A stretch of DNA of 64,000 nt from Schistosoma haematobium (taxonomy: Eukaryota > Platyhelminthes > Trematoda > Strigeidida > Schistosomatidae), in assembly GCF_000699445.3 (NCBI RefSeq), contig NC_067198.1:23447536-23511535 (forward strand), given 5' to 3'. The position numbers were made by a program, and so were the translations under genes. The notes beneath the pieces are model-generated. The model was not told where the DNA came from. It searched no databases and worked only from the letters and a program-made list of their open reading frames with translations. Of this stretch, positions 1 to 59,805 are shown one piece after another (position 1 is the stretch's first letter; every line of letters begins with the position of its first letter).

Positions 1-210
1 AATCAACCAATCAATAAATCAGACAATCCCACACTAACTCACACACACACACACACGAACACAAATTAGTTCACATCCATCCAATCGAGTGCACTACATG
101 CAATCCACCAAATCACCAGTAGTATCAGTTCTGTGCACAACTAACTCAAACACATCTCACACAAACAACACTGCGTACATTGCATACACACAATCAACTA
201 ACACACTCAC

Positions 211-340
211 CTGTTGTACTCTCCGTCAACATAACCTCAGTTGCCGTAGTGTCGGTCTCCGTAATCTCGGTCTCCGTCGTCACTTCGTTCGTGCCAGTAG
301 TGGTCTCAGCTACAATGGACGAAATCCAACACCAATAATT

Positions 341-379
<39 letters not shown>

Positions 380-1867
380 TCTATCAATCAATCATCACAT
401 CAGTCCTTCAATCAATCAGTCGATCATTCAAAAATCAACAAATCAACAAATCAATCAATCCATCGATCAATCTGTCAAATAGATTAAACCTTCAACAATC
501 CAAACATTCGTCCAACCACTCCTACAAACACTCGTACAAACACTCGCACAACCACTCATCAAAACATTCATCCAATCAGTCTCCCATGCATTCTCTCCAT
601 CAACAATTCAATCCACTTGTCCAACTACTAAGTCAACACAACACACATTATCATTCACAGACACACACACACACACTCAAACACTATCTCACACTCTCCT
701 TCCCAAACACACTCACTCACTCACTCACTCAATCACGCACTCACTGACTCAATCAGTCAATCAATCAACCAATCAATAAATCAGACAATCCACACTAACT
801 CACCACACACACACACATACACACGAACACAAATTAGTTCACATCCATCCAATCGAGTGCACTACATGCAATCCACCAAATCACCAGTAGTATCAGTTCT
901 GTGCACAACTAACTCAAACACATCTCACACAAACAACACTGCGTACATTGCATACACACAATCAACTAACACACTCACCTGTTGTACTCTCCGTCAACAT
1001 AACCTCAGTTGCCGTAGTGTCGGTCTCCGTAATCTCGGTCTCCGTCGTCACTTCGTTCGTGCCAGTAGTGGTCTCAGCTACAATGGACGAAATCCAACAC
1101 CAATAATTAATCAATCAATCAATCAATCAATCATCAATCAATCAATCATCAATCAATCATCACATCAGTCCTTCAATCAATCAGTCGATCATTCAAAAAT
1201 CAACAAATCAACAAATCAATCAATCCATCGATCAATCTGTCAAATAGATTAAACCTTCAACAATCCAAACATTCGTCCAACCACTCCTACAAACACTCGT
1301 ACAAACACTCGCACAACCACTCATCAAAACATTCATCCAATCAGTCTCCCATGCATTCTCTCCATCAACAATTCAATCCACTTGTCCAACTACTAAGTCA
1401 ACACAACACACATTATCATTCACACACACACACACACACACTCAAACACTATCTCACACTCTCCTTCCCAAACACACTCACTCACTCACTCACTCACGCA
1501 CTCACTGACTCAATCAGTCAATCAATCAACCAATCAATAAATCAGACAATCCACACTAACTCACCACACACACACACACACACGAACACAAATTAGTTCA
1601 CATCCATCCAATCGAGTGCACTACATGCAATCCACCAAATCACCAGTAGTATCAGTTCTGTGCACAACTAACTCAAACACATCTCACACAAACAACACTG
1701 CGTACATTGCATACACACAATCAACTAACACACTCACCTGTTGTACTCTCCGTCAACATAACCTCAGTTGCCGTAGTGTCGGTCTCCGTAATCTCGGTCT
1801 CCGTCGTCACTTCGTTCGTGCCAGTAGTGGTCTCAGCTACAATGGACGAAATCCAACACCAATAATT

Positions 1868-1921
<54 letters not shown>

Positions 1922-3407
1922 CACATCAGTCCTTCAATCAATCAGTCGATCATTCAAAAAAATCAACAAATCAACAAATCAATCAATCCATCGATCAATC
2001 TGTCAAATAGATTAAACCTTCAACAATCCAAACATTCGTCCAACCACTCCTACAAACACTCGTACAAACACTCGCACAACCACTCATCAAAACATTCATC
2101 CAATCAGTCTCCCATGCATTCTCTCCATCAACAATTCAATCCACTTGTCCAACTACTAAGTCAACACAACACACATTATCATTCACAGACACACACACAC
2201 ACACACACTCAAACACTATCTCACACTCTCCTTCCCAAACACACTCACTCACTCACTCACTCACGCACTCACTGACTCAATCAGTCAATCAATCAACCAA
2301 TCAATAAATCAGACAATCCACACTAACTCACACACACACACACACACACACGAACACAAATTAGTTCACATCCATCCAATCGAGTGCACTACATGCAATC
2401 CACCAAATCACCAGTAGTATCAGTTCTGTGCACAACTAACTCAAACACATCTCACACAAACAACACTGCGTACATTGCATACACACAATCAACTAACACA
2501 CTCACCTGTTGTACTCTCCGTCAACATAACCTCAGTTGCCGTAGTGTCGGTCTCCGTAATCTCGGTCTCCGTCGTCACTTCGTTCGTGCCAGTAGTGGTC
2601 TCAGCTACAATGGACGAAATCCAACACCAATAATTAATCAATCAATCAATCAATCATCAATCAATCAATCAATCAATCATCAATCCATCAATCAATCATC
2701 ATCAGTCCTTCAATCAATCAGTCGATCATTCAAAAATCAACAAATCAACAAATCAATCAATCCATCGATCAATCTGTCAAATAGATTAAACCTTCAACAA
2801 TCCAAACATTCGTCCAACCACTCCTACAAACACTCGTACAAACACTCGCACAACCACTCATCAAAACATTCATCCAATCAGTCTCCCATGCATTCTCTCC
2901 ATCAACAATTCAATCCACTTGTCCAACTACTAAGTCAACACAACACACATTATCATTCACACACACACACACACACACTCAAACACTATCTCACACTCTC
3001 CTTCCCAAACACACTCACTCACTCACTCACTCACGCACTCACTGACTCAATCAGTCAATCAATCAACCAATCAATAAATCAGACAATCCCACACTAACTC
3101 ACCCACACACACACACACACACGAACACAAATTAGTTCACATCCATCCAATCGAGTGCACTACATGCAATCCACCAAATCACCAGTAGTATCAGTTCTGT
3201 GCACAACTAACTCAAACACATCTCACACAAACAACACTGCGTACATTGCATACACACAATCAACTAACACACTCACCTGTTGTACTCTCCGTCAACATAA
3301 CCTCAGTTGCCGTAGTGTCGGTCTCCGTAATCTCGGTCTCCGTCGTCACTTCGTTCGTGCCAGTAGTGGTCTCAGCTACAATGGACGAAATCCAACACCA
3401 ATAATTA

Positions 3408-3457
<50 letters not shown>

Positions 3458-4170
3458 CACATCAGTCCTTCAATCAATCAGTCGATCATTCAAAAATCAA
3501 CAAATCAACAAATCAATCAATCCATCGATCAATCTGTCAAATAGATTAAACCTTCAACAATCCAAACATTCGTCCAACCACTCCTACAAACACTCGTACA
3601 AACACTCGCACAACCACTCATCAAAACATTCATCCAATCAGTCTCCCATGCATTCTCTCCATCAACAATTCAATCCACTTGTCCAACTACTAAGTCAACA
3701 CAACACACATTATCATTCACAGACACACACACACAACACTCAAACACTATCTCACACTCTCCTTCCCAAACACACTCACTCACTCACTCACTCAATCACG
3801 CACTCACTGACTCAATCAGTCAATCAATCAACCAATCAATAAATCAGACAATCCCACACTAACTCACCACACACACACACACACACGAACACAAATTAGT
3901 TCACATCCATCCAATCGAGTGCACTACATGCAATCCACCAAATCACCAGTAGTATCAGTTCTGTGCACAACTAACTCAAACACATCTCACACAAACAACA
4001 CTGCGTACATTGCATACACACAATCAACTAACACACTCACCTGTTGTACTCTCCGTCAACATAACCTCAGTTGCCGTAGTGTCGGTCTCCGTAATCTCGG
4101 TCTCCGTCGTCACTTCGTTCGTGCCAGTAGTGGTCTCAGCTACAATGGACGAAATCCAACACCAATAATT

Positions 4171-4204
<34 letters not shown>

Positions 4205-4939
4205 CAATCATCATCAATCAATCATCACATCAGTCCTTCAATCAATCAGTCGATCATTCAAAAATCAACAAATCAACAAATCAATCAATCCATCGATCAA
4301 TCTGTCAAATAGATTAAACCTTCAACAATCCAAACATTCGTCCAACCACTCCTACAAACACTCGTACAAACACTCGCACAACCACTCATCAAAACATTCA
4401 TCCAATCAGTCTCCCATGCATTCTCTCCATCAACAATTCAATCCACTTGTCCAACTACTAAGTCAACACAACACACATTATCATTCACAGACACACACAC
4501 ACACACACACTCAAACACTATCTCACACTCTCCTTCCCAAACACACCACTCACTCACTCACTCAATCACGCACTCACTGACTCAATCAGTCAATCAATCA
4601 ACCAATCAATAAATCAGACAATCCCACACTAACTCACACACACACACACACACACGAACACAAATTAGTTCACATCCATCCAATCGAGTGCACTACATGC
4701 AATCCACCAAATCACCAGTAGTATCAGTTCTGTGCACAACTAACTCAAACACATCTCACACAAACAACACTGCGTACATTGCATACACACAATCAACTAA
4801 CACACTCACCTGTTGTACTCTCCGTCAACATAACCTCAGTTGCCGTAGTGTCGGTCTCCGTAATCTCGGTCTCCGTCGTCACTTCGTTCGTGCCAGTAGT
4901 GGTCTCAGCTACAATGGACGAAATCCAACACCAATAATT

Positions 4940-4996
<57 letters not shown>

Positions 4997-5705
4997 CATC
5001 AGTCCTTCAATCAATCAGTCGATCATTCAAAAATCAACAAATCAACAAATCAATCAATCCATCGATCAATCTGTCAAATAGATTAAACCTTCAACAATCC
5101 AAACATTCGTCCAACCACTCCTACAAACACTCGTACAAACACTCGCACAACCACTCATCAAAACATTCATCCAATCAGTCTCCCATGCATTCTCTCCATC
5201 AACAATTCAATCCACTTGTCCAACTACTAAGTCAACACAACACACATTATCATTCACAGACACACACACACACACTCAAACACTATCTCACACTCTCCTT
5301 CCCAAACACACTCACTCACTCACTCATCACGCACTCACTGACTCAATCAGTCAATCAATCAACCAATCAATAAATCAGACAATCCACACTAACTCACCAC
5401 ACACACACACACACACGAACACAAATTAGTTCACATCCATCCAATCGAGTGCACTACATGCAATCCACCAAATCACCAGTAGTATCAGTTCTGTGCACAA
5501 CTAACTCAAACACATCTCACACAAACAACACTGCGTACATTGCATACACACAATCAACTAACACACTCACCTGTTGTACTCTCCGTCAACATAACCTCAG
5601 TTGCCGTAGTGTCGGTCTCCGTAATCTCGGTCTCCGTCGTCACTTCGTTCGTGCCAGTAGTGGTCTCAGCTACAATGGACGAAATCCAACACCAATAATT
5701 AATCA

Positions 5706-5743
<38 letters not shown>

Positions 5744-6466
5744 CAATCAATCATCACATCAGTCCTTCAATCAATCAGTCGATCATTCAAAAAATCAACA
5801 AATCAACAAATCAATCAATCCATCGATCAATCTGTCAAATAGATTAAACCTTCAACAATCCAAACATTCGTCCAACCACTCCTACAAACACTCGTACAAA
5901 CACTCGCACAACCACTCATCAAAACATTCATCCAATCAGTCTCCCATGCATTCTCTCCATCAACAATTCAATCCACTTGTCCAACTACTAAGTCAACACA
6001 ACACACATTATCATTCACACACACACACACACACACACTCAAACACTATCTCACACTCTCCTTCCCAACACACACTCACTCACTCACTCACTCACGCACT
6101 CACTGACTCAATCAGTCAATCAATCAACCAATCAATAAATCAGACAATCCACACTAACTCACCCACACACACACATACACACGAACACAAATTAGTTCAC
6201 ATCCATCCAATCGAGTGCACTACATGCAATCCACCAAATCACCAGTAGTATCAGTTCTGTGCACAACTAACTCAAACACATCTCACACAAACAACACTGC
6301 GTACATTGCATACACACAATCAACTAACACACTCACCTGTTGTACTCTCCGTCAACATAACCTCAGTTGCCGTAGTGTCGGTCTCCGTAATCTCGGTCTC
6401 CGTCGTCACTTCGTTCGTGCCAGTAGTGGTCTCAGCTACAATGGACGAAATCCAACACCAATAATT

Positions 6467-6508
<42 letters not shown>

Positions 6509-7984
6509 CACATCAGTCCTTCAATCAATCAGTCGATCATTCAAAAAATCAACAAATCAACAAATCAATCAATCCATCGATCAATCTGTCAAATAGATTA
6601 AACCTTCAACAATCCAAACATTCGTCCAACCACTCCTACAAACACTCGTACAAACACTCGCACAACCACTCATCAAAACATTCATCCAATCAGTCTCCCA
6701 TGCATTCTCTCCATCAACAATTCAATCCACTTGTCCAACTACTAAGTCAACACAACACACATTATCATTCACACACACACACACACACACACTCAAACAC
6801 TATCTCACACTCTCCTTCCCAAACACACTCACTCACTCACTCACCACTCAATCACGCACTCACTGACTCAATCAGTCAATCAATCAACCAATCAATAAAT
6901 CAGACAATCCCACACTAACTCACCACACACACACACACACACGAACACAAATTAGTTCACATCCATCCAATCGAGTGCACTACATGCAATCCACCAAATC
7001 ACCAGTAGTATCAGTTCTGTGCACAACTAACTCAAACACATCTCACACAAACAACACTGCGTACATTGCATACACACAATCAACTAACACACTCACCTGT
7101 TGTACTCTCCGTCAACATAACCTCAGTTGCCGTAGTGTCGGTCTCCGTAATCTCGGTCTCCGTCGTCACTTCGTTCGTGCCAGTAGTGGTCTCAGCTACA
7201 ATGGACGAAATCCAACACCAATAATTAATCAATCAATCAATCAATCACATCATCAATCAATCCATCAATCATACATCAGTCCTTCAATCAATCAGTCGAT
7301 CATTCAAAAAATCAACAAATCAACAAATCAATCAATCCATCGATCAATCTGTCAAATAGATTAAACCTTCAACAATCCAAACATTCGTCCAACCACTCCT
7401 ACAAACACTCGTACAAACACTCGCACAACCACTCATCAAAACATTCATCCAATCAGTCTCCCATGCATTCTCTCCATCAACAATTCAATCCACTTGTCCA
7501 ACTACTAAGTCAACACAACACACATTATCATTCACACACACACACACACACACTCAAACACTATCTCACACTCTCCTTCCCAAACACACTCACTCACTCA
7601 CTCACTCACTCACGCACTCACTGACTCAATCAGTCAATCAATCAACCAATCAATAAATCAGACAATCCCACACTAACTCACCACACACACACACACACAC
7701 GAACACAAATTAGTTCACATCCATCCAATCGAGTGCACTACATGCAATCCACCAAATCACCAGTAGTATCAGTTCTGTGCACAACTAACTCAAACACATC
7801 TCACACAAACAACACTGCGTACATTGCATACACACAATCAACTAACACACTCACCTGTTGTACTCTCCGTCAACATAACCTCAGTTGCCGTAGTGTCGGT
7901 CTCCGTAATCTCGGTCTCCGTCGTCACTTCGTTCGTGCCAGTAGTGGTCTCAGCTACAATGGACGAAATCCAACACCAATAATT

Positions 7985-8015
<31 letters not shown>

Positions 8016-11000
8016 TAATCAATCAATCAATCAATCATCACATCAGTCCTTCAATCAATCAGTCGATCATTCAAACAAATCAACAAATCAACAAATCAAT
8101 CAATCAATCCATCGATCAATCTGTCAAATAGATTAAACCTTCAACAATCCAAACATTCGTCCAACCACTCCTACAAACACTCGTACAAACACTCGCACAA
8201 CCACTCATCAAAACATTCATCCAATCAGTCTCCCATGCATTCTCTCCATCAACAATTCAATCCACTTGTCCAACTACTAAGTCAACACAACACACATTAT
8301 CATTCACAGACACACACACACTCAAACACTCAAACACTATCTCACACTCTCCTTCCCAAACACACTCACTCACCACTCACTCAATCACGCACTCACTGAC
8401 TCAATCAGTCAATCAATCAACCAATCAATAAATAAGACAATCCGACATTAACTCACTCACACACACACACACGAACACAAATTAGTTCACATCCATCCAA
8501 TCGAGTGCACTACATGCAATCCACCAAATCACCAGTAGTATCAGTTCTGTGCACAACTAACTCAAACACATCTCACACAAACAACACTGCGTACATTGCA
8601 TACACACAATCAACTAACACACTCACCTGTTGTACTCTCCGTCAACATAACCTCAGTTGCCGTAGTGTCGGTCTCCGTAATCTCGGTCTCCGTCGTCACT
8701 TCGTTCGTGCCAGTAGTGGTCTCAGCTACAATGGACGAAATCCAACACCAATAATTAATCAATCAATCAATCAATCATCCATCAATCAATCAATCAATCA
8801 TCACATCAGTCCTTCAATCAATCAGTCGATCATTCAAAAATCAACAAATCAACAAATCAATCAATCCATCGATCAATCTGTCAAATAGATTAAACCTTCA
8901 ACAATCCAAACATTCGTCCAACCACTCCTACAAACACTCGTACAAACACTCGCACAACCACTCATCAAAACATTCATCCAATCAGTCTCCCATGCATTCT
9001 CTCCATCAACAATTCAATCCACTTGTCCAACTACTAAGTCAACACAACACACATTATCATTCACAGACACACACACACACACACTCAAACACTATCTCAC
9101 ACTCTCCTTCCCAAACACACTCACTCACTCACTCACTCACGCACTCACTGACTCAATCAGTCAATCAATCAACCAATCAATAAATCAGACAATCCCACAC
9201 TAACTCACCACACACACACACACACACGAACACAAATTAGTTCACATCCATCCAATCGAGTGCACTACATGCAATCCACCAAATCACCAGTAGTATCAGT
9301 TCTGTGCACAACTAACTCAAACACATCTCACACAAACAACACTGCGTACATTGCATACACACAATCAACTAACACACTCACCTGTTGTACTCTCCGTCAA
9401 CATAACCTCAGTTGCCGTAGTGTCGGTCTCCGTAATCTCGGTCTCCGTCGTCACTTCGTTCGTGCCAGTAGTGGTCTCAGCTACAATGGACGAAATCCAA
9501 CACCAATAATTAATCAATCAATCAATCAATCAAATCAATCAATCAATCAATCCATCAATCAATCATCACATCAGTCCTTCAATCAATCAGTCGATCATTC
9601 AAAAATCAACAAATCAACAAATCAATCAATCCATCGATCAATCTGTCAAATAGATTAAACCTTCAACAATCCAAACATTCGTCCAACCACTCCTACAAAC
9701 ACTCGTACAAACACTCGCACAACCACTCATCAAAACATTCATCCAATCAGTCTCCCATGCATTCTCTCCATCAACAATTCAATCCACTTGTCCAACTACT
9801 AAGTCAACACAACACACATTATCATTCACAGACACACACACACACACTCAAACACTATCTCACACTCTCCTTCCCACACACACACTCACTCACTCACTCA
9901 ATCACGCACTCACTGACTCAATCAGTCAATCAATCAACCAATCAATAAATCAGACAATCCCACACTAACTCACACACACACACACACACACGAACACAAA
10001 TTAGTTCACATCCATCCAATCGAGTGCACTACATGCAATCCACCAAATCACCAGTAGTATCAGTTCTGTGCACAACTAACTCAAACACATCTCACACAAA
10101 CAACACTGCGTACATTGCATACACACAATCAACTAACACACTCACCTGTTGTACTCTCCGTCAACATAACCTCAGTTGCCGTAGTGTCGGTCTCCGTAAT
10201 CTCGGTCTCCGTCGTCACTTCGTTCGTGCCAGTAGTGGTCTCAGCTACAATGGACGAAATCCAACACCAATAATTAATCAATAATCAATCAATCATCAAT
10301 CAATCAATCAATCAATCATCACATCAGTCCTTCAATCAATCAGTCGATCATTCAAAAATCAACAAATCAACAAATCAATCAATCCATCGATCAATCTGTC
10401 AAATAGATTAAACCTTCAACAATCCAAACATTCGTCCAACCACTCCTACAAACACTCGTACAAACACTCGCACAACCACTCATCAAAACATTCATCCAAT
10501 CAGTCTCCCATGCATTCTCTCCATCAAACAATTCAATCCACTTGTCCAATTAGTTAATCAACACAACACATATTATCATTCACAGACACACACACACACA
10601 CACTCAAACACTATCTCACACTCTCCTTCCCAAACACACTCACTCACTCACTCAATCACGCACTCACTGACTCAATCAGTCAATCAATCAACCAATCAAT
10701 AAATCAGACAATCCCACACTAACTCACCACACACACACATACACACGAACACAAATTAGTTCACATCCATCCAATCGAGTGCACTACATGCAATCCACCA
10801 AATCACCAGTAGTATCAGTTCTGTGCACAACTAACTCAAACACATCTCACACAAACAACACTGCGTACATTGCATACACACAATCAACTAACACACTCAC
10901 CTGTTGTACTCTCCGTCAACATAACCTCAGTTGCCGTAGTGTCGGTCTCTGTAATCTCGGTCTCCGTCGTCACTTCGTTCGTGCCAGTAGTGGTCTCAGC

Positions 11001-11030
11001 TACAATGGACGAAATCCAACACCAATAATT

Positions 11031-11088
<58 letters not shown>

Positions 11089-13314
11089 CACATCAGTCCT
11101 TCAATCAATCAGTCGATCATTCAAAAATCAACAAATCAACAAATCAATCAATCCATCGATCAATCTGTCAAATAGATTAAACCTTCAACAATCCAAACAT
11201 TCGTCCAACCACTCCTACAAACACTCGTACAAACACTCGCACAACCACTCATCAAAACATTCATCCAATCAGTCTCCCATGCATTCTCTCCATCAACAAT
11301 TCAATCCACTTGTCCAATTACTTAATCAACACAACACACATTATCATTCACAGACACACACACACACACTCAAACACTATCTCACACTCTCCTAACCAAA
11401 CACACTCACTCACTCACTCAATCACGCACTCACTGACTCAATCAGTCAATCAATCAACCAATCAATAAATCAGACAATCCCACACTAACTCACACACACA
11501 CACATACACACGAACACAAATTAGTTCACATCCATCCAATCGAGTGCACTACATGCAATCCACCAAATCACCAGTAGTATCAGTTCTGTGCACAACTAAC
11601 TCAAACACATCTCACACAAACAACACTGCGTACATTGCATACACACAATCAACTAACACACTCACCTGTTGTACTCTCCGTCAACATAACCTCAGTTGCC
11701 GTAGTGTCGGTCTCTGTAATCTCGGTCTCCGTCGTCACTTCGTTCGTGCCAGTAGTGGTCTCAGCTACAATGGACGAAATCCAACACCAATAATTAATCA
11801 ATCAATCAATCAATCAAATATCCATCAATCAATCAATCAATCATCACATCAGTCCTTCAATCAATCAGTCGATCATTCAAAAATCAACAAATCAACAAAT
11901 CAATCAATCCATCGATCAATCTGTCAAATAGATTAAACCTTCAACAATCCAAACATTCGTCCAACCACTCCTACAAACACTCGTACAAACACTCGCACAA
12001 CCACTCATCAAAACATTCATCCAATCAGTCTCCCATGCATTCTCTCCATCAAAACAATTCAATCCACTTGTCCAATTACTTAATCAACACAACACACATT
12101 ATCATTCACAGACACACACACACACACACTCAAACACTATCTCACACTCTCCTAACCAAACACACTCACTCACTCACTCACTCACGCACTCACTGACTCA
12201 ATCAGTCAATCAATCAACCAATCAATAAATCAGACAATCCACACTAACTCACACACACACACACACACACGAACACAAATTAGTTCACATCCATCCAATC
12301 GAGTGCACTACATGCAATCCACCAAATCACCAGTAGTATCAGTTCTGTGCACAACTAACTCAAACACATCTCACACAAACAACACTGCGTACATTGCATA
12401 CACACAATCAACTAACACACTCACCTGTTGTACTCTCCGTCAACATAACCTCAGTTGCCGTAGTGTCGGTCTCCGTAATCTCGGTCTCCGTCGTCACTTC
12501 GTTCGTGCCAGTAGTGGTCTCAGCTACAATGGACGAAATCCAACACCAATAATTAATCAATCAATCAATCAATCACAAATATCCATCAATCAATCAATCA
12601 ATCATCACATCAGTCCTTCAATCAATCAGTCGATCATTCAAAAATCAACAAATCAACAAATCAATCAATCCATCGATCAATCTGTCAAATAGATTAAACC
12701 TTCAACAATCCAAACATTCGTCCAACCACTCCTACAAACACTCGTACAAACACTCGCACAACCACTCATCAAAACATTCATCCAATCAGTCTCCCATGCA
12801 TTCTCTCCATCAACAATTCAATCCACTTGTCCAACTACTAAGTCAACACAACACACATTATCATTCACAGACACACACACACACACTCAAACACTATCTC
12901 ACACTCTCCTTCCCAAACACACTCACTCACTCATCACTCAATCACGCACTCACTGACTCAATCAGTCAATCAATCAACCAATCAATAAATCAGACAATCC
13001 ACACTAACTCCCACACACACACACACACACGAACACAAATTAGTTCACATCCATCCAATCGAGTGCACTACATGCAATCCACCAAATCACCAGTAGTATC
13101 AGTTCTGTGCACAACTAACTCAAACACATCTCACACAAACAACACTGCGTACATTGCATACACACAATCAACTAACACACTCACCTGTTGTACTCTCCGT
13201 CAACATAACCTCAGTTGCCGTAGTGTCGGTCTCCGTAATCTCGGTCTCCGTCGTCACTTCGTTCGTGCCAGTAGTGGTCTCAGCTACAATGGACGAAATC
13301 CAACACCAATAATT

Positions 13315-13364
<50 letters not shown>

Positions 13365-14070
13365 CACATCAGTCCTTCAATCAATCAGTCGATCATTCAA
13401 AAATCAACAAATCAACAAATCAATCAATCCATCGATCAATCTGTCAAATAGATTAAACCTTCAACAATCCAAACATTCGTCCAACCACTCCTACAAACAC
13501 TCGTACAAACACTCGCACAACCACTCATCAAAACATTCATCCAATCAGTCTCCCATGCATTCTCTCCATCAACAATTCAATCCACTTGTCCAACTACTAA
13601 GTCAACACAACACACATTATCATTCACAGACACACACACACACTCAAACACTATCTCACACTCTCCTTCCCAAACACACTCACTCACTCACTCAATCACG
13701 CACTCACTGACTCAATCAGTCAATCAATCAACCAATCAATAAATCAGACAATCCACACTAACTCACTCACACACACACACACACACGAACACAAATTAGT
13801 TCACATCCATCCAATCGAGTGCACTACATGCAATCCACCAAATCACCAGTAGTATCAGTTCTGTGCACAACTAACTCAAACACATCTCACACAAACAACA
13901 CTGCGTACATTGCATACACACAATCAACTAACACACTCACCTGTTGTACTCTCCGTCAACATAACCTCAGTTGCCGTAGTGTCGGTCTCCGTAATCTCGG
14001 TCTCCGTCGTCACTTCGTTCGTGCCAGTAGTGGTCTCAGCTACAATGGACGAAATCCAACACCAATAATT

Positions 14071-14115
<45 letters not shown>

Positions 14116-14814
14116 CATCAATCAATCAATCAATCATCACATCAGTCCTTCAATCAATCAGTCGATCATTCAAAAATCAACAAATCAACAAATCAATCAA
14201 TCCATCGATCAATCTGTCAAATAGATTAAACCTTCAACAATCCAAACATTCGTCCAACCACTCCTACAAACACTCGTACAAACACTCGCACAACCACTCA
14301 TCAAAACATTCATCCAATCAGTCTCCCATGCATTCTCTCCATCAACAATTCAATCCACTTGTCCAACTACTAAGTCAACACAACACACATTATCATTCAC
14401 AGACACACACACACACACTCAAACACTATCTCACACTCTCCTAACCAAACACACTCACTCACTCACTCAATCACGCACTCACTGACTCAATCAGTCAATC
14501 AATCAACCAATCAATAAATCAGACAATCCCACACTAACTCACCACACACACACACACACACGAACACAAATTAGTTCACATCCATCCAATCGAGTGCACT
14601 ACATGCAATCCACCAAATCACCAGTAGTATCAGTTCTGTGCACAACTAACTCAAACACATCTCACACAAACAACACTGCGTACATTGCATACACACAATC
14701 AACTAACACACTCACCTGTTGTACTCTCCGTCAACATAACCTCAGTTGCCGTAGTGTCGGTCTCCGTAATCTCGGTCTCCGTCGTCACTTCGTTCGTGCC
14801 AGTAGTGGTCTCAC
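211..14814 (-). CDS. Array of 20 identical 99-nt mucin-repeat exons
   Basis: Exon low-high coordinates: 211-309, 979-1077, 1738-1836, 2506-2604, 3277-3375, 4041-4139, 4810-4908, 5571-5669, 6337-6435, 7097-7195, 7855-7953, 8627-8725, 9382-9480, 10146-10244, 10901-10999, 11666-11764, 12425-12523, 13185-13283, 13941-14039, 14716-14814. Each is flanked by acceptor cgtccattgtag and donor gtgagtgt and is phase 1-1. The 33-residue repeat starts [10 protein letters not shown], continues [10 protein letters not shown] and ends M-L-T-E-S-T-T. It has 15 Thr, 1 Ser, 7 Glu, 1 Asp, no Pro, Cys or basic residue, so it should form an acidic, densely O-glycosylated rod. Apart from one silent change (copies at 10,901 and 11,666) and a first-base change (14,716 copy) I saw no exon difference by eye. 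Confidence 0.88.
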
Positions 14815-17800
14815 CTACAATGGACGAAATCCAACACCAATAATCAATTAATCAATCAATCAATCCATCCATCAATCAATCATTACGTCAATCAATCCAT
14901 GAATTACTCGATCTTTTAATCAGTCCTCCCTACGTTCATACATTAATTCTTTGTGACCACATTTTCACGAATACTTACTTTGTTGTGTTTTGTGATTTGT
15001 TTATTTTTATCTTTTTTATTTTGCTCTAGTTTCGCTCTTTTTCTTGTTTTAATTTTTCTCTGATTTGTCAGTTCGTTTCTTTCATGTTTCTATTTTCTTC
15101 TTTCTATGTTTTCCCAAATTTTTGTGTCTTTGAATTCAGTACAATTTTATTCACCTTCAGAATTGTTAATGTTTTCAAAATAGTTCAGCGATTTATCGAA
15201 CTTCATTTTCTCTCGATGTTTCTATCTACAGTTTCTTCCTTACATGTAAATCACACGGTCACATTTTCATTTTCAATTGATGTTTCGTCAATTCAGTGAT
15301 TGTTCTACTATTTACCATTTGTTTTTATTCTTTGGTTGTTGATCCTCACTATTTCTGATTTTACATTTGAAGCAATCTCCTTGTACTTTCGACATAAAAG
15401 CAGATAATGAGGAACGCGAACTTGATTATGGATGAATTTCCATTACTGCCCGAAATGTCGTTTATCTACTTGAAGTAATTTAGCGTTTGTTAATTTCTTC
15501 CACGTGAAGCATAACTCGCTGCTTTCACTATGTGTTTTCATACATACACATCAACTTAATTCGTTCTTAATATAACTATTCGATTTATCAATCGTTCTTA
15601 TCTACTTTTTAAATGTACTGCCTTACATTCCGACACCCTGATTACTCGTGACATCTTTAATTTTATGTCATATGGGGACCTTACACATACTTCAAACATT
15701 TTTGCGTTGTCGCGAATACTGATATATAATATTTTGGATTTTTCCAACTAATTTACTGTCACTCCATATTCTTTTATCTGAGGAAGATTATCTCAATAAT
15801 ACTTCAGTCAAAATTACTGGTCGAAGAATCAACTCACAAAAGTGAATATTCAGAGTATTTTACTCGTACAATTTGCAATCTTAAGACATAAGTTCTCGCG
15901 TATATTATCGACTCAGTGAAAAAATTGCAAACCACTTACTTACCCGTAGTCTTGTTATCTTCGGTATTCTGAGATTCAGTGATCACCTCAGTGGTTGCCA
16001 CATGGATTACAGCTGAAAATACAATGAGAAACGTGTATCTATTCACGTCACAAAAAGCTGAGTATACATGACAATTAATCCTGATTATGATTAGCTGCTA
16101 GCCATAGCAGGCGACTAGGTATTTGACAGTAAATGAAGTCGAGACACTTTCGCTGCAGATGGTTTGCAAGTGATAGAGTTGTTTTTCAAACTTGTGAACA
16201 ATTCCATTTCCTCGTTGATCGAACACTGAACATTCCATTTCGTCGTGTGTTGTGATCTCACCAACTGTAAGACTCTTTAAAATGTAAACGGAATTCTATA
16301 TCAAACAGCATATATGGAAAGGTCCTATACAAGTGACTGAGGATAAGACAGATTTCTATTGTCTCTCTAGAACAACAAATTTGAAATAGGATCAAACAGT
16401 TTCATGAACTAAAATTAAGAGCATCTAATAGATGATCACATCATACATGCATGCTAATTGTTATGCAGGTGATATTTAACGTGAGAAATAATCAGTTGAA
16501 TCCTACAACGTTCGCTTCCGGTGTCGGATTCCCTATCATCAACTTCCAAGATGCATTGAGAACGTGGCGCTCAACTCGCAGGATAAACTGGTTTATTCAA
16601 CCGACGTTAAACACAAAATTCAATTTCAATATAGCTCGAAAATATCACATGCACTCACTTTCTACTGTCAAGCCACTTGATGTATCGAAGTACACTTGCT
16701 CCGACCCATTGGCAACCATTTCTGCTATGTATGCCACAACAGCATTTCGAACAGTGTCTTTTGTCACTTCAGTCGATGAGAAATTCCCACTTGTGTTACT
16801 ATGGTCGATGACTAATACTGCATTTCCAACAACTGATCCACGCGAGAAGCCAACAACTGTGCAATTAACATTGATTATTCCCTCAATATTAGTTGAATAT
16901 ATGCTGTCCAAAAGCTTGAAGATTTTGTGAGAAGAAAATCGTGCGTGTTATAACGGGATGAATATTGTAAAAGTTGGAAATTTGGAAAATGGTTTTTGAA
17001 TTGTTATCATGAATATTGTTATTGCTATCAACTATGTTTTTCTTATATAATTACTAAGCAACTGGATTACTGTGTCTATATAATACGTTAACCACAAGCT
17101 TTTGGTTAACCCGTTAACCACTGATAGACAACTCTCCACTCCCAGATTTTTGCCAGTCTACTATTTACGGCTTGCATTATTCACAAACACTTTCGGCTTG
17201 TCTATGTATGCTTGTGATTTTTCACTCAGTGGTGCGATGTGGTCCAGCACGACTGTATATGATTCCACGTATGCCTGAAGTATAAGAATGATAGAGGCCG
17301 TCTGTTGACTTCTCTCTTTGACTCAAGTTTGAAGGCAAAGAAGGACTTACGAGTAGCGGAAAAATAGGAGCTTGGCTTGCATCGCCACAAGGTGGACGGT
17401 GAGGGTCATGCCTGTGGTTGGTCATTGCTTGGACACTGGGTCATGGAGGAAATAGTAAACACGGAATGGAAAAGAAATTAGAGTTAGAATTCCGATTGGT
17501 AACCTTAGCACATGATATCAATCAGCATCTCAAGCCACAGAAATGTGAGCGGTGGCTTTTCAATGGAATAGTCAGTAATGAATGAATAAATGAGTTAGTC
17601 GCAGTTGATAGTTAATGCGACATCACAATGTATAACATCAGGCAGATGGTGCTATACTGCCACTTAGCTCAGTGAGGCTACCCCATGGTGCCATTCATGT
17701 TAGGTTAGATGAAATTAGCTCATCGGCATAAATCATTGTTGTATGAATGTCGAACAAGTAGTTTGGTGGAGTTTTATAGCACCGAAGTTTTACATTCACG

Positions 17801-20800
17801 TGGAAGGAGAACAAATTGGTTTTCCAAACTCGTGGATTAGCAAATATATTTATCGACTGGGTAACCTCAGTTGTCACTACTTACAATATCAAAACGACTG
17901 ATCCATTACAGGATCGTGCCCGTGCATGTTGACCACTTCTGGTAATTATGCTATGCATAATCAAACGAAACAAACACATTCGCCTTTATTTGATTGCAAC
18001 AACATAGTGATTGGAGACCATAGAGTGTTTTGAGACTGCATCAGTTTGTGTAGAGTAAAACGAGATATGATCTACATGGTAAATGGTGAAGAACGGACAC
18101 CATTAACCACGACGAGTTAAATTCATAATTGCATAAAACAATGATCATGGAATCTACCCAAACAACATCTTGAATTTCTACAGGTACTATTCGTCACAGT
18201 TAGAGAAAACAGTTAAATAGTACTCTGTCTTCTATAAATAGCTATTAAATAGCTACATATATTTCCAAAAACCGTCTTCAAATGTCAAACTTCAACCCTT
18301 TATCAAAAGACACAGGTTGTCTATACATTTAATCAGTTCTCCTCATTTTTATGTAAATTCAATTGAGAACTCGGTAACAAACTTACCAAATTACAAATTT
18401 CAGCTGAATAATTTCGATATAAATCGGAACTAGGATCCAATAAACTGTCATTCCACTCCAAAGACTTGTTCGATCTAGTCAGCATTGATGAGACTGCTAC
18501 AAAAGAAATTAAATAGTTTCCAACAAGTCAAAGTTCGTTGATTTAAATCCGACTTCTCAGTGAAAGGAGAATATTGAGTTGACTTACTGTTGCACAACAA
18601 AACAAAACTGAACGACCTCTCTTCAACTCCACACCACAAATCCAAGTGTATTCGATTATGATCTATCAAAGTGATGGACACTATGAAGTAAATGGTTGTT
18701 TGATTTCCCACATCCATGCACACTGAATGCGATATGCTCTTGGTTTGTTATGAAAATAAAGAATTCTACACCAAGTAGTAATGTCTACCCACACACATTG
18801 GTTAATAAGTGTAACAATATTGTGAGTGAAGTGACGCTCAGCAAACAAATGTAACGTGACTTCCACAGTTACAGTAAATTTCAGTACTTGTTAGCTTTTA
18901 TACGAATACAATTAAATTGTTCCACTTGGAAAGATTATGAATCATTCCGGTTTAACATAGATAGTGGCCAACGCGACCAGACGACTCTGAGAAACTCAAC
19001 AATAAATACTGATTGACAAATAATTTCAATATATGAGCGTACTATATGTGACATCTCTTCGCTACACTGAATTTCCAAGAGGAACAATTCACCCAACCGT
19101 TTATGTAATGCAATGTAACCACATATTGATGAATGAAATGGAAAGCAGAATCAAAACAATCAATCAGGAAAATAAATTGGTGTGACAAAACAAACTGCTA
19201 TATCATATTTTGACTTACCGATTACTACTGTTTTCGTGAGGTTGCCTTCTATAAAACATTTAAGTAGATAACGAAGAAAATTTTCATTAAAAGAACACAT
19301 GGAGTTTGGTTACATGCAATGCAGATAGACAAGCAGAAACACAAACACAAAACATTGGAGAGAGGAACTTGAATTTAGATAAGCACACAAATGATGAAAA
19401 CGTGAATTCAGGAGTAAACAATTTGGAGTGAATAGAAGGTCAAATCACTGAATGCCTCAATCAGGTCACTTCACATAATCTACTGCTCACATCAGGTCTG
19501 TTTCTAATGATTTCCAATTTTCTAATCGCTTCTGTAGATTCGCCTTTGCATTCAACATATTTCTGTATACGACCTAAATTAAACATATTTCACCAGCCAG
19601 TTTGTCATCACATTAATGTGTCTCTTCATTATTAAATGATGGTGTAATAAACTAGATTAGATCACCTTGTCAGTCAATCATCATCAACCAAAACCTTGCA
19701 GCAAATGTGTCGTGGCACAATTTGCGATATGATATTGGTACAATCAGATATATTGAAAGAATTCGATTCCCGACATCAATAAAATTAAACAAATAATTAT
19801 GTTAATGGTAACACCTGAAGCAAACCACATAAAATTTTCAAAACTATTGCGTAATGGAGAATCACTTGCTGGTAGACAAACCTAAATTTGTATTACCTGT
19901 TTTTGATTACTCTCAGTGAGTTCATCTGATGACTGAAACTCAATGAAACTTAGACTAAGAGTGTATTGAACTTAGGTATGAAATATATTATGCTACTCTA
20001 TGACCTAATGTCCATTGAACAATTAATCGATTATAAGTTTTCATCCACCTTAATTTTAAAAGTATTTTATTGTTTTATGGTTTAACATTTTACCATACTC
20101 CTCTTTTAATAACGAAGTTTAAATTAGATGAATAAGTAGAAAGTATACACAATTTCTATAAAAGTACGTTAAAAGTATTATGAAAGCTACGAAGAGCGTC
20201 ATTTATACTCCATATATATTTCTCCCTTCCACAGACCATATTTTAACATCTCATGATGTCTGACTGCCATTTCTTCATCATTAGTTTCTCAGTAAAACTT
20301 TTTTCTGGCCTGAATGAATAAATCTTCACTTATAGTAAACATATGGTGAATGTTTCACTTAATTTGATAGAGTAAAACGTGCGATCTCACGCGATAGAAT
20401 TGAGGTTGGCTCCAACATTTGAGTAATTATTCTGAGGAACTTTTCCTTTAATTGCCTGATTATTACTAAAATATAATAACTAATCATTAATATAAATTTT
20501 CAGTTGCTGACTTCATACTGAATATGGAGGTTCTGAGGTATGAGGAGAAAAAGTGTTTCACAAAGTACTTGACGAACTGCAGACTTAATAACTCCAGAAA
20601 GTTTCTTGCGCGATAGAAGCTGCTTTTGGCATAAATTACTCCATTTATACATCAACAATAAGAAGTACTATAATCAAGCATCTTTTGCAAACTTGTCATT
20701 TGCCGTTAAGATGACAAAGAAACAACAACCAGGTCAACTTAACACATGAAAATAATACTGATTTGATATTCACAAGTGCTGGTTTTTCGCTAAAAGAATG

Positions 20801-22642
20801 TAGGTTACCTTAATAAAGCAAAATGATATATTAGTTGCAAAATTTAGGCGCTATATTCAGTATGAGATTAATTAGTAAACTCAAAAAAATTATCGAGAAT
20901 AGTAGAAATGATCAAAGTGAAGTAAAAAGATATTCTGTGAAAATATAAAGGAGATTTAGACTAAGAACCAAACTAGCAAAAATATTAAACATACCTGAAT
21001 CATATGGAGAAACATCGCCTGAAAAATAAACAAAATGAAATGATTAATAAAAGGTCTAGCAATGTTAATAGTAGGTATAAAAATTATACTAGAAACTCTC
21101 TAAGAATAAGATAGGAGAAGACAGAGCTCGAAAATGAGGAATCATCAACTGATGAGACATCAAAACAAAGCGGCGAGAAAATATCGGAGTCAGCAAATAA
21201 ATACGTATGAGAAATCCCAAGAACGGAACTATGAACCACGTCAGTAGAATAAAAAATGTGCATTGTAGACGTGGACGTAAATACAAAAACAGATGGAATG
21301 ACAAGTTACAGCATACTTGGAATATGTTGATCAGCGATGAAGATTATCTCCTTTGGTATTGTGGATCCAATGAACGGTGTAGTCAATGTGACTGCACTGG
21401 TAAAAGCAATGTTGGTCGTGCTGATATGTGTTGACATTGTGGGTGTAGATTTTCCAGTGCTGGTGGTAGCCACACTACTGGTTGTGTTGACGTCATTAAC
21501 GATGATGCTGTTGGCCAGGTGACGAACTTAAGTGTGGAAATAGTGGATGTTGTGAAGATTGTTATCGTTGTGGTGGTATCAGTATCTATCTTGGTTTCGA
21601 TAATCATTCTACTTGTTTTATTAAAGATTTTCGACTTTAAATTTCATCTCGCTTATTTCGTTTTTGCACTACTTCTTTCAGTGTTTTTCCTTCTCGATTG
21701 CTTCATCAATTCGTTTTTCACTGTTCCGTTTTGTTTTGTTTTCTTCCTTATTTTTCCGAACAGTTTTCTTATTCTCCCTCCGTTTTTGTTCTTCCTTTTT
21801 TTGAGGTTAAGGAACATTCTGTTAATGAGTTAATTTTAACGTTTTTGAATTTTGTAGATTTTTATTCTTTCATTTTTTTAAAATCGATATTTAATATGCT
21901 ATTCATTGTGTCCAGTACTTCACTTTGAATGAATTTCATTACGTTTTAAAGTTTTTTTTGCTATTTCCCTCATTGTCTACATGTTTTTTGTTGTTATCTT
22001 CTTTATTTTAACTTCTCGCTTATTCTTTCTTTACTTTCTGATAAGTTTACGTCTGTGTTCTTAAGCGTATTTATTTTTTATTGTTATCATAGTTAATATT
22101 TTTAAATATATATTTGATGTTGGAATCATGAAACTGAAGCGGAAAATAGGAAGGCCAAATATCACATTACGTCGGGAAATAGAAACAGATATGAAAAGAA
22201 TGAATAACAATTGAAAAGAGCTGGAAAGGATTGCATAGGACAAGTTTAGATAGGGAGTACTGATAGGCGGTCTATGCTCCTCTACGAGGGGTAACAGACG
22301 TGAGTAAGTAAGTAAGTTGTATTTGATGTTATTTCAGATCTGAATACGTTCAGACTAATTACTTTCTTTATGTTGTAATGATTTACTTCTCTATATAAAT
22401 CTAGTCTTTTTCAACGAGTCATAGTTTAAACTTTGTTGGCACTTAGTTATCAATAATAACTCAATTAGTGCTATGATTTATGAAATTTTAGGGATTTGTT
22501 CTAATTATTTCATATGGTATTGTGCTTTAATTACATGAGTGTATTATTGCTCAGTCTATGTAAATTATTCTTTCATATTGGAAAGTTATTTTTGTTCTTA
22601 GATGAACTATGAATAAATATAATAACTATTTAGTACACCATC

Positions 22643-22681
<39 letters not shown>

Positions 22682-25600
22682 CAATAATGTAATTAGAGCA
22701 CGAAGATTATCAGAACTATGTGATGTATTAGCGCAATACATTTCGAACAATCTGATCACACATATACTTGTTAAGAGCATTTATATATGAAAATAAAAGG
22801 TCAACTAGACTGGAAATGGGGTAAAAGGAGATAAGGATAATGATAAGAGTAATAATAATAATAATAATATGGACACAATTCGAAACCTTTCACACAGAAC
22901 TTAGTTTTTCACCGGTTGAATGAGCCTTATAGTAACTTAGAATTTATTGATTTTCATGATAATAAGTGTTAGAAATAGTCATGAAATCACGAGAAACTCA
23001 TGTTTGATAAGCTGATTATGCTTCATAGAAAGTTAATAATAGAACAAAAGTACAGGATATCTGTTTGATTTAGGTTTTCTTTTGGTAAAAATCGATTGTC
23101 TTTTAAAATATCCAGTTGCAGTGAAAAGTATTATTCAGAAGTATTATGTTTTATTTAAATTGTTATTGACAATAAACAAGAATAATAAGTTATCACAATT
23201 TATCCAAATGACATCGCAAAATTGAATTAAATGATTGACTATTGAATTCAGTAGTATAGAAGAAGTAATAGTAACATGTTGAAATTTATTGATTAGTTAT
23301 TGTTGTGTAATTTAACGTATAAATTCTTTCATCATGCAATCTGCATTGCTTTTCTTCATCTAAGAGCCGAGTAATCTAGCCTTCAACAAAAAGGATTTGT
23401 ATCCTAGAATTAGAATGACAACTTATTTGCATCCTTTGAGTTTGATATTTTTTATTTCAGAAGCCAGGTACTGATTTTTACTATGTAATGATCTCAATTT
23501 CATGAATCATCAAACCTTTAATCTGATAAACTGCTTACTATGAATAATTAATTTATTTTAAATGAACAATGACTAACCTGTACTTGTTGAATACACACTA
23601 ACTGGGAAATCTGAAGACGAAGATGTTTCAGATGATATGACATCAGATATAACCTGATCGTCATACGGTATTGTTGATTCCATACTTATCGTTATCACTA
23701 AACAATGTAAACAATTACAGGACAATATAAGAAATAAATCAGATAAAGGTATACAAATGTTATATTTAACTGTTAGTTAATTTAAGACCACTGATTATGT
23801 ACATATCCATATATCACTTACAAGAACACCCACATGAAAGCTATCATGATATCATGTCAAGTAGTAAGTAAATAAAAAACTTAAATAACATTCCTTAGTT
23901 GTTAAATTGAAGTATTCTTAACACCAAACGTTTATTTCACTTCTCTTTGACCGAACTCTGACTGAATGAGTTCGAACAGCCTAGTAGTTTAAATAACCAT
24001 AATATGGTTATTCATTTGCTCTGAACAAGTGGCTTACATTAAGTCACGAAATGTAGGAATTACAACTTTTCTACTCATATGGATATAAAAAAAAATTTAT
24101 TTATTATGTTTATTATTCCTGAGTTATGTTTTTCTCATTTGGAATTGTAAATTTTCAAAATACTTACTACAATTCCACGTGTCATTCACTCAGATGGATA
24201 AGCAGAGTTTGCGAAGTTTAAGTGATTATTATCTCAGTTGAAATAGTCTGGATGTACTCCTGACAGGTTATGCTCTAAGCGTGCTAAAATAACTCCCAGA
24301 GTCAACATTTTTTCGATTAATCCTTTGACTTATTTAGTTGGTATGGCTACTTAACGATTATTCATTCAACTTTGCAATATGTACTGTATCTAGATCAGTA
24401 GATTACAGGGAGGGTAACTGAGATAATGTCAATACAAACTCAATAGAGTAACCTATCACCACTTGGATTGATCGATCTGATCTAAACAGTTGCTTTGCAC
24501 AAATTCTTTCAAATTAGCTTAATGACAGAAAATTCAGATATCTTGGTTTACCAGGGATGAAGACTAAATTTCAGTCAAGAATACGGTCTTATGCAATCTA
24601 TTTAAATGGCTCATCTAAATGTTTGCTAACTGTCACCAGTAAATAGGAATTTCATTTGATTGAGGTGCTTTCTTAAAATTTACCAACAATTCATTTTGTT
24701 TGTGAAATGAAATGAATAAAGAAGTTTAACCATATTTCTCACATTTGTCTGTACAAAACTTTTCTTAGTTTCATTTGTATATTATCAATCCTTCATGAGA
24801 TCGCTAAACCAGGGGAACATACTTATTGTTACAAAATAGCTCATATATAGCTTCAGAAATAATGTATCATAACACAATCTTATCGATTAAATAACTTCTT
24901 ATTTTAAGTATCATTTGATTTGCATTCTAATGTTTCAGACAAAATCATACTCTCGTCTTTTGGAATAGCTCACATATTTTTATTCAGTAACTCCCATTTT
25001 TGCAGTAAATGAGAAAATATTTGCAATCCATTGTAGCATTCGCCATAGTGTACATGTGCGAATAATCACGGACCTTTATTTCAAATAATTTTAATCCATT
25101 TAGTCTATCAATAAGTAGATTTTATGAAGAGTAACCTAATTTAAACATAACTAGATGTCAAACAATGACCTCGACAAAAAATGTAGTGTAAGGAGAACAA
25201 ATAATTATTATGCACAAATAATATTTTCTGGATGAATAAACGACTAAATTGATATCTAACAACTTCAGCTAATGTTTCCAGGATTTGTTAATCAGTTATC
25301 GCGAATTCAGAAATTATTTATAAAAAGCAAATATACCGTTAATTTTGTTAACAACAAGTGAGTTCATCCACCTATCAAAAATAATTTATTTATGCATTTA
25401 ACACATTTGTGCTTCCGTTATCACTTCATGCTGAAATGATGTTCTGACAATAACTGTAGATAATACGACCAAATGACTAGACCTATATAGTGATCGTTCT
25501 TGAAGTATCTACTAGTATTTACAAAGACCTTGACATAAACTTAGGTAGAGATAAAATCCGCCTTCTTTCTAAAGTTTATATACTAAGAGCAAGCAACGTA

Positions 25601-44402: not shown

Positions 44403-44565
44403 ATATAGTGGCTAGCAGTGGAATCCAGGACGTGCCGTCCCTCCTATTTGGGACTCGTCAGCTGGATGTACCTGCATCTCAGAGTTAGTGTTCACTCTGA
44501 GACTCGAACCCAACACCGTTCGCTTCAAACGCCATCGCGTTATCCACTTAGCTACCGAGTTCTAA
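44403..44565 (-). repeat. Sm-alpha-like SINE, dead hammerhead
   Basis: Minus strand: tRNA-like A box (tagctaagtggataacgcg), B box (gggttcgagtc), then CTGACGAG. The GAAAC segment of the hammerhead core is replaced by a G-rich variant, so cleavage is not expected. It lies about 390 bp upstream of exon 1 of the SEA gene. Confidence 0.85.
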
Positions 44566-46764: not shown

Positions 46765-46975
46765 ATTGAAGCTAGACAACCATGGAAAACCTGGAAGCAC
46801 TGGACGGCCGCTTCGTCCTATTGTGGGACTCCTCAGCAGTGCGCATTCACGACCCCACCTTGAGAGATTCGAGCCCAAGACCTATCACTCTCGCGTGCGA
46901 GCGCTTAACCTCCAGACCACTGACCCGACATCCTACTGTGTTAATGTCTAACATCGAACAATCCACGAAATTGAG
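46765..46975 (+). repeat. Second SINE-like family, copy
   Basis: GC-richer block with tRNA-like word gagattcgagccc, gcgcttaacctccagaccactgac and gttaatgtctaac, matching 31.1 kb and 37.1 kb. Confidence 0.65.
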
Positions 46976-52582: not shown

Positions 52583-52758
52583 GCAAAGATGGATAGAGGC
52601 TAGCAGTGGAATCCAGGACACGCGTTTCGTCCTATTCAGTACTCGTCAGCTGGATGTACCTGCATCCAAGAGTTGATGTCCACTCCGTGACTCGAGCCCA
52701 ATATCGTTCGCTTCAAACGCCGTCGCCTTATCCACTTAGCTATTGAGTCCTGATAGCC
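52583..52758 (-). repeat. Sm-alpha-like SINE with near-complete hammerhead ribozyme
   Basis: tRNA-like part on the right, ribozyme part at about 52,600-52,665. On the minus strand the core has CTGACGAG (52,642-52,649), GAAAC (52,624-52,628) and the GTC cleavage triplet (52,617-52,619) followed by CTGGAT, which pairs with ATCCAG upstream of the core. Stem II has one change (GTAC facing GGAC). This is the copy most likely to be active in the window. Confidence 0.85.
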
Positions 52759-57239: not shown

Positions 57240-57462
57240 GCAAAAATGGATAGTGGCTAGCAGTGGGATCCAGGATGTGCGTTTCGCCCTATTTGGGACA
57301 CGTCAGCTGGATATACCTGCACCTTAGAGTAATGCTTGTAAATTAAGGCAATATCGAGGCAGTACGCACACTATGCACATATGCCAATAAGAGACTGATC
57401 AATTGCAGTCTTCAACATCAATGGGAAGATTCAAACAAACAATACCAAATGAATTTATATCC
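57240..57462 (-). repeat. Partial Sm-alpha-like SINE plus 3' tail segment
   Basis: Hammerhead part at 57,245-57,320 with CTGACGTG (A to T in the core) and GAAAC, joined to the same tail segment found in the 29-kb inverted repeat (aaattaaggcaat, caatgggaagattc). The tRNA-like part is missing. Confidence 0.75.
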
Positions 57463-59635: not shown

Positions 59636-59805
59636 AACGGATGGTGGCAAGTAGTGGAGTCCAGGACGCGCGTCTCATCTTATTTGGGACTCGTCATCTG
59701 AATGTACCACATCCCAGAATTGATGTTCATTCGGGAACTCGAATTAAGTATCTTTCGGGTCCCAAATAGGACGATTCTACTGCTTGCTTCCACCTATCTC
59801 TGCTT
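59636..59805 (-). repeat. Degenerate Sm-alpha-like SINE
   Basis: Hammerhead core is ATGACGAG and GAGAC on the minus strand; both differ from the functional core. The right end repeats a short inverted piece of the SINE start. Confidence 0.65.

Follow-up and report, generated by a model that had tools for sequence, protein, structure and literature searches.

The 64,000-nucleotide stretch of Schistosoma haematobium DNA analysed here (hereafter the window, whose position 1 is C4:23447536 and whose end is C4:23511535 in assembly Shae.V3) very probably holds the central part of one gene of ~96 kb for a predicted membrane-anchored mucin of the SEA/EGF/transmembrane (TM) type, in which a Thr/Glu-rich domain is encoded by a tandem array of short exons. 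As modelled, this gene lies on the minus strand at C4:23395280-23491553, with its 3' end outside the window, and its spliced form, when 57 array exons are included, comprises 81 exons and 3,015 residues without an internal stop. The array share of this genomic prediction amounts to 57 in-frame repeats, or 1,876 of the 3,015 residues. That the satellite-like array could be a mucin domain built from tandem exons had been proposed in an earlier note on this DNA, and our results support the proposal through the splice sites, the reading frame, the annotated flanks, and the repeat junctions of S. mansoni and S. rodhaini. The exons, their phases, the open frame, and the conserved neighbours in other schistosomes are established at the level of sequence.

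The predicted protein would begin with a putative signal peptide and an R-x-K/R-R site, followed by three SEA domains with Ser/Thr-rich linkers. Its middle part would be the Thr/Glu repeat domain, with one 33-residue repeat per exon and 59 copies as assembled, interrupted by a copied SEA module, and its C-terminal part would consist of a further pair of SEA domains and an EGF-like module, then a single hydrophobic (putatively transmembrane) helix and a tail of ~14 residues.

The tandem-exon array

Twenty array exons lie in the window (211..14814, minus strand), each of 99 nt and 33 residues and one per 763-bp unit, and the array continues outside the window to C4:23408185. The 19 intervals between them measure 755-775 bp (mean 763.4), and TTGTAG precedes and GTGAGT follows the exon in 20/20 copies. 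The count, the ~763-bp spacing and the splice sites thus stand as the earlier note had given them, but not the identity of all twenty exons, as 17 of the 20 are identical and three have one base changed each. Beyond these copies, the best other minus-strand match in the window has 50 mismatches out of 99.

In full, the array extends over 54 kb of a single locus and comprises 59 copies, all of them located via the common acceptor and donor, with a duplicate row of one 84-nt copy discounted. In length, 56 are of 99 nt (phases 1-1; 41 identical, the remaining 15 with one mismatch), two of 98 nt, and one of 84 nt, the last of which keeps the frame; 57 of the 59 have a length that is a multiple of 3. 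The array had been taken to span positions 1 to 14,900 of the window, coordinates that prove too small, and to encode at least 660 residues. An exact-pattern search of the whole genome (163 contigs, 400,267,458 bases) with a 36-base piece of the exon returned 58 matches, 57 in the array and one on the unplaced contig C79, a pattern of this kind being one that would miss diverged repeat copies.

The encoded repeat has 15 Thr and 7 Glu per 33 residues and no Pro, and the remainder of each unit is an intron with CAAT, CACT and CA tracts. Among the minus-strand frames of the repeat exon, the phase-1 frame alone is open. Across the same exon, two of the three plus-strand frames are also open, and plus-strand open reading frames (ORFs) of 121 and 71 residues lie at the array edge, so that the plus-strand frames might be taken for the true coding sequence. 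This is hardly credible, as the annotated proteins that match here are encoded on the minus strand, namely P0002, P0014, P0016 and those with the S. mansoni and S. rodhaini repeats. A chance or simple-repeat origin of the array was rejected in view of the conserved splice sites, the single open minus-strand frame, and the orthologous repeats in other species.

Annotated proteins on both sides of the array

The product of the 13 exons upstream of the array is identical to the annotated S. haematobium protein MS3_00010608 over 651 of 652 residues. These exons were selected before MS3_00010608 was seen and were never altered, an S. bovis fragment (P0001, covering SEA3 and the micro-exon me2) being already known at that time. 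The Thr-rich exon (T1; 15944..16012, minus strand, phases 1-1) and the exons of the three SEA domains upstream of it, as placed in the earlier note, join in frame. Exons throughout were picked by a phase-guided choice, after home-made splice scores had mis-chained weak acceptors. At the C-terminus, the run identical to MS3_00010607 was 208 residues long in the first model and 346 after correction, of which only the 208 are independent of the correction, the start of SEA6 and two me2 copies having been corrected only after comparison with the annotated proteins. The corrected model also shares 338 residues with MS3_00000169 (P0016). Both 98-nt array copies and a copied T1 exon (C4:23418380-23418451), the latter used by the annotated protein P0014, are omitted from the 81-exon model.

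The MS3_00010608 record reads on into the intron that precedes the array and stops there, and MS3_00010607 begins inside an SEA half-exon. In S. curassoni, the same N-terminus continues through the same EGF-TM end in one protein without repeats (P0005), and in S. bovis the same N-terminus is joined to SEA6 (P0003). Therefore, the S. haematobium annotation seems to split one gene and to drop the array. Repeat masking might explain why the repeats are missing here and from P0005 and P0003.

Orthologous 33-residue repeats are present in annotated proteins of S. mansoni (P0013 and P0015) and S. rodhaini (P0018). In the two S. mansoni proteins, GEETTDTTEVTTEIDITETDITETEVMETERTT, or a longer version of it, comes after the T1 exon, and in the S. 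rodhaini protein the end of one repeat is followed by two full repeats and then by me2-SEA. S. haematobium P0016 starts within the end of a repeat exon and continues as me2-SEA-SEA6-EGF-TM. The S. mansoni and S. haematobium repeats both have 33 residues, 23 of them identical, with an alignment score of 106 compared with a maximum of 80 in 5,000 shuffles. The first array exon of the window (14716..14814, minus strand) begins with G where the other copies have C, and its junction residue is Gly, as in the S. mansoni and S. rodhaini repeats, while the other array exons have Ala. The repeat junctions of S. mansoni, S. rodhaini and S. haematobium are those of database gene models.

Relatives of the SEA parts of the gene occur across the schistosomes and also in Trichobilharzia and Heterobilharzia. 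One Heterobilharzia protein (P0019) shares the SEA-EGF-TM end and carries a segment rich in Thr and Glu between its SEA domains, an indication that the plan of this gene is older than the genus Schistosoma.

Domains of the predicted protein

The SEA domains are divided between half-exons, and none of eight single ORFs scanned apart passed the Pfam SEA cut-off (26.4 bits). When the half-exons were joined, SEA2 (30.3 bits) and SEA3 (28.5 bits) exceeded it, and whole annotated proteins scored 67.2 (P0002) and 63.5 bits (P0014). For a fold search, the S. bovis SEA protein P0001 was modelled (153 residues; mean predicted local distance difference test, pLDDT, of 65.6), and the search gave four PDB matches at E-values up to 0.001 (4.6e-4 to 8.8e-4), namely MUC16 SEA5, TMPRSS6, a mouse transmembrane-protease SEA domain, and a MUC16-mesothelin complex. 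TMPRSS6, too, contains an SEA domain. The AlphaFold model of the 364 membrane-proximal residues (pLDDT 48.7) was too poor for a fold search.

The motif F..GS[VI] is kept in the SEA1, 2, 3 and 6 types, and in the models of the SEA3 and SEA6 types (pLDDT 65.6 and 48.7) the Gly-Ser pair appears to fall between the second and third predicted strands. MUC1 is cut at a Gly-Ser in the beta2-beta3 loop of its SEA domain. The R-x-[KR]-R site before SEA1 is kept in 11 of 11 N-terminal homologs. Pfam matches of the homologs to families such as C2orf69 and Pam17 were dismissed as spurious; those that reach their cut-offs in P0013 occupy no separate segment of that protein.

Evidence against a single gene and alternative readings

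Several observations weigh against the single gene for a tandem-exon mucin. The splicing of the S. haematobium array is a prediction from the genome. The S. haematobium annotation (MS3_00010608) stops at T1, before the array, the S. curassoni P0005 and S. bovis P0003 models leave the repeats out, and the S. mansoni 5' part (P0008) and repeat-bearing part (P0013, P0015) are separate records. The two 98-nt copies (C4:23437785-23437882 and C4:23410435-23410532), which are either sequencing errors of the Nanopore-based assembly or real defects, would shift the frame if spliced in, so that the earlier statement that each array exon can be skipped or duplicated without a change of frame applies to 57 of the 59 copies and fails for these two. 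The copy number, moreover, is only that of the assembly, contig C79 bearing one further exact copy of the repeat exon. As Shae.V3 is reported to combine Nanopore, Hi-C and other reads (PMC8846543), and the array consists of 54 kb of 763-bp units, this number should be treated with care.

The domain assignments are affected as well. Scored alone, SEA1 (23.7 bits) and SEA6 (20.6 bits) are under the Pfam cut-off, and the EGF-like exon has the six-Cys pattern but scores 18.8-24.0 bits with EGF_3, whose cut-off is 28.5 bits. The four top-ranking fold matches have modest template-modelling scores (TM-scores; 0.14-0.63), with unrelated folds from rank 7 on. A profile search of solved structures placed MUC1 (E 0.053 and 0.077) below T-cell receptor chains (0.0012 and 0.021), a noise-level result that says nothing in either direction. 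The helix (325-351) comes from the low-confidence P0016 model (pLDDT 48.7), and the signal peptide and the membrane insertion are assigned by eye and from that model.

If the annotation is taken as it reads, the locus would hold two separate SEA genes (MS3_00010608 and MS3_00010607) flanking a non-coding satellite with a decayed or unused exon, a description with which the two frame-breaking copies and the repeat-skipping P0005 and P0003 models agree. We consider this quite improbable, as one of the two genes would then start within an SEA half-exon and both ends stand in one protein in S. curassoni. In addition, the S. mansoni and S. rodhaini models splice in orthologous repeats of the same 33-residue length and frame, and 57 of the 59 copies have a length divisible by 3, with all 59 located through the acceptor and donor that they share. 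It is also conceivable, though unlikely, that the gene is real and its array exons are mostly skipped, the main product being a short SEA-T1-T3-SEA6-EGF-TM protein and the array an intronic repeat; P0005 has this form and P0003 resembles it, and a unit with CAAT, CA and CACT tracts could expand on its own. Against this, the array exon has the highest splice-score sum, 20.0 (home-made scores, among the exons listed, one array copy being in the list), and the exon varies less than the intron, with 3 of 99 variable columns compared with 68 of 644 nearly gap-free intron columns across 50 main-block units (Fisher p 0.016), a contrast given little weight because misaligned microsatellites inflate the intron count.

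Homogenisation and interruptions of the array

Within the single predicted mucin gene, the units show a pronounced uniformity. The unit alignment covers 50 of the 59 units, those of the main block, in which the difference between units is flat with distance (0.032 at lag 1, 0.033 at lag 40). Since this difference does not grow with distance, the units must have undergone strong homogenisation (or averaging by the assembly). Relative to a mid-array unit, 48 main-block units are 93.4-100% identical (mean 96.1), and six units beyond a copied SEA module are 91.5-94.5% identical. A homogenised main block with more divergent units past the copied module is consistent with unequal exchange or gene conversion.

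The array is broken by two gaps, one due to the insertion of a dispersed repeat and the other to this copied SEA module. The dispersed repeat (3.96 kb, C4:23412356-23416315) sits within an array intron and has, among the candidates scored, at least 36 other long copies in the genome at 94-97% identity. For the copied module within the array, window positions 14800-19833 match C4:23417261-23422270 at 98.25%; a second copy lies just past the array, where 16625-19833 matches C4:23403262-23406467 at 98.6%. Both copied blocks bear me2 and the two halves of one SEA domain.

Contig C79 (16.8 kb, unplaced) carries the 3' end of the gene at 99.2% identity over 16.3 kb. Its features lie at 201-509 and 1104-1202 of locus L028, and the sequence adjoining and preceding its repeat exon is 88% like the end of the dispersed insert. 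This contig could be another allele, a misassembly or assembly debris.

Exon structure and other features of the window

All exons upstream of the array lie on the minus strand. Exon 1 (43685..44018, phase 1 out) contains the start codon, a hydrophobic N-terminus (a putative signal peptide, by eye) and the REKR site, and equals the start of MS3_00010608. SEA1 is encoded by a first half-exon at 42772..42890 (phases 1-0; in P0002) and a second at 41298..41547 (0-1), the latter with the F..GS motif. Two Ser/Thr-rich exons follow (38624..38794 and 36477..36569, both 1-1 and in P0002), and then the SEA2 half-exons at 34544..34653 (1-0; in P0002) and 26165..26429 (0-1). A further Ser/Thr-rich exon (23578..23697, 1-1; in P0002) precedes an optional Thr-rich exon with approximate ends (21317..21527), found in S. 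haematobium P0004 and missing from S. haematobium P0002, which is possibly an alternative exon. Two micro-exons come next, me1 (24 nt, 20995..21018) and me2 (30 nt, 19219..19248), both 1-1 and in P0002, and identical copies of me2 precede both SEA copies outside the window. The SEA3 half-exons (18387..18496, 1-0, in P0002; 16659..16914, 0-1, with the F..GS motif) lead to T1, the last exon of the annotated MS3_00010608. On the 3' side of the array, outside the window, the order is SEA5, a 39-nt Thr exon, SEA6, the EGF-like exon, and the last exon, which encodes the hydrophobic helix and the stop, with AATAAA shortly behind. Each module of the modelled gene is 1-1 overall, and therefore skipping or repeating any of them leaves the frame intact.

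The intron between the SEA2 half-exons contains an 838-residue open frame on the plus strand (31868-34384) that, by eye, resembles a reverse transcriptase of the long interspersed nuclear element (LINE) type. Eight matches to the type I hammerhead exceed the Rfam gathering score in the window, at 29153-29196 (-), 29551-29595 (+), 35012-35056 (+), 44423-44467 (-), 46797-46842 (-), 52611-52655 (-), 57268-57312 (-) and 59659-59703 (-). Three of them are in introns of the modelled gene, on both strands, and five are outside it; they are probably dispersed elements resembling short interspersed nuclear elements (SINEs). An intronic hammerhead is a trait of SmPoMuc, but matches distributed in this way count as background.

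Predicted function and implications

The Thr-rich stretch may be densely O-glycosylated and would then form a stiff, extended stalk in the glycocalyx or in the coat of the gut surface, while the SEA domains may cleave themselves and so allow shedding. Unequal exchange or gene conversion between units, together with exon skipping, could alter the length of this stalk with the frame preserved, because intact repeat exons are of phase 1-1. The repeat domain would in this way be free to change its length.

Two schistosome coats may be considered as sites for this protein. The gastrodermis carries a mucin-like coat made up of the circulating anodic antigen (CAA) and the circulating cathodic antigen (CCA) (PMC4133383), and this 2014 review describes the polypeptide backbone of CAA as 'not known' and that of CCA as a 'reputed' 39-kDa protein; the CAA polysaccharide is threonine-linked according to a title cited there. 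The cercarial glycocalyx is reported to be 1-2 um thick, with glycans bound to lipids and, via Ser or Thr, to proteins (PMC5351870). It is a long-shot proposal that the Thr/Glu stalk supplies the long-sought core polypeptide for one of the main O-glycan coats of schistosomes, with the CAA and the cercarial glycocalyx as candidates. If it were true, the number of copies of a single phase 1-1 exon would set the size of an antigen, vary between worms, and tune the thickness of the coat at no cost to the frame. The predicted protein is a concrete candidate for the carrier of the O-glycans on which diagnosis draws and which the immune system encounters.

Within partly accessible open-licence literature, including PMC3886910 and PMC9203882, no description of this gene was found, an absence that carries little weight, and the available part of a study on repeat-based diagnostics (PMC11731689) shows no link to the array. 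The class of gene is already known, and what is new is its size, the single-locus tandem-exon build, the SEA/EGF/TM frame, and its absence from the annotation. Two SEA proteins listed as 'hypothetical', together with a satellite-like block that lacks annotation, would thus become one very large predicted surface mucin gene of a human parasite, and an annotation can miss most of a protein, here 1,876 of 3,015 residues.

Comparison with known systems

The small symmetric exons of this gene, with micro-exons of 24, 30 and 39 nt, resemble those of schistosome micro-exon genes. A micro-exon gene, however, is defined by symmetric exons no longer than 36 nt that supply most of its coding sequence, and here most of it is in exons of 99 nt and larger, so that the gene was not placed in this class.

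The closest layout is that of SmPoMuc, the polymorphic mucins of S. mansoni, whose mucin domain is likewise described as tandem genomic repeats, each with one short in-frame exon and a microsatellite (PMC2576457). The principle of one exon per tandem unit is shared, which is not proof of membership, and the earlier note had rightly left a link to that family open. For SmPoMuc, a 27-bp exon is reported in a unit of ~1 kb, with at most 20 units per gene, several genes, and secretion by miracidia and sporocysts; its repeats (>93%) and its introns are homogenised, and the array defeated genome assembly at that time (PMC2576457). That the present gene is a divergent SmPoMuc is nevertheless very improbable. 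Its exon is of 99 nt in a unit of 763 bp, with 59 assembled copies, and neither of the two published SmPoMuc repeat oligos (r1 and r2) matches the window when up to 3 mismatches are allowed. Its exact repeats are confined to one locus and one unplaced contig, whereas the SmPoMuc genes form a family distributed over four places (PMC2576457), and it combines SEA domains with a putative membrane helix, whereas the word 'transmembrane' occurs 0 times in the main text of PMC2576457 (EGF was not searched for). Membership was rejected on the sequence features tested, that is, exon length, absence of the oligos, and single locus. The gene would instead be the second example, after SmPoMuc, of a schistosome mucin built from tandem exons.

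SEA domains in schistosomes are also known from the S. japonicum SEA-domain gene family, located at the tegument and gastrodermis (PMC3886910). In contrast to the gene described here, that family is described as having spread by retrotransposon-mediated duplication and as binding heme and glycosaminoglycans, in an abstract that mentions no repeat mucin domain (PMC3886910).

In its overall architecture, the predicted protein is most readily compared with mucins of the SEA/EGF/TM type. Vertebrate SEA-type transmembrane mucins include MUC1, MUC3, MUC12, MUC13, MUC16 and MUC17, and they have in common with the schistosome gene long Thr/Ser-rich repeats and the Gly-Ser site of the SEA domain. The EGF module near the membrane of several members and the single transmembrane segment would have their counterparts in the EGF-like exon and the putative helix of the schistosome gene. 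The schistosome gene differs from them in having five SEA regions besides the membrane-proximal one, which flank the repeat domain on either side and also lie within it, a repeat without Pro, and a very short tail. Its repeats are moreover encoded one per exon, in contrast to one giant exon in the vertebrate genes. The likeness is one of architecture, by analogy and with no claim of vertebrate descent.

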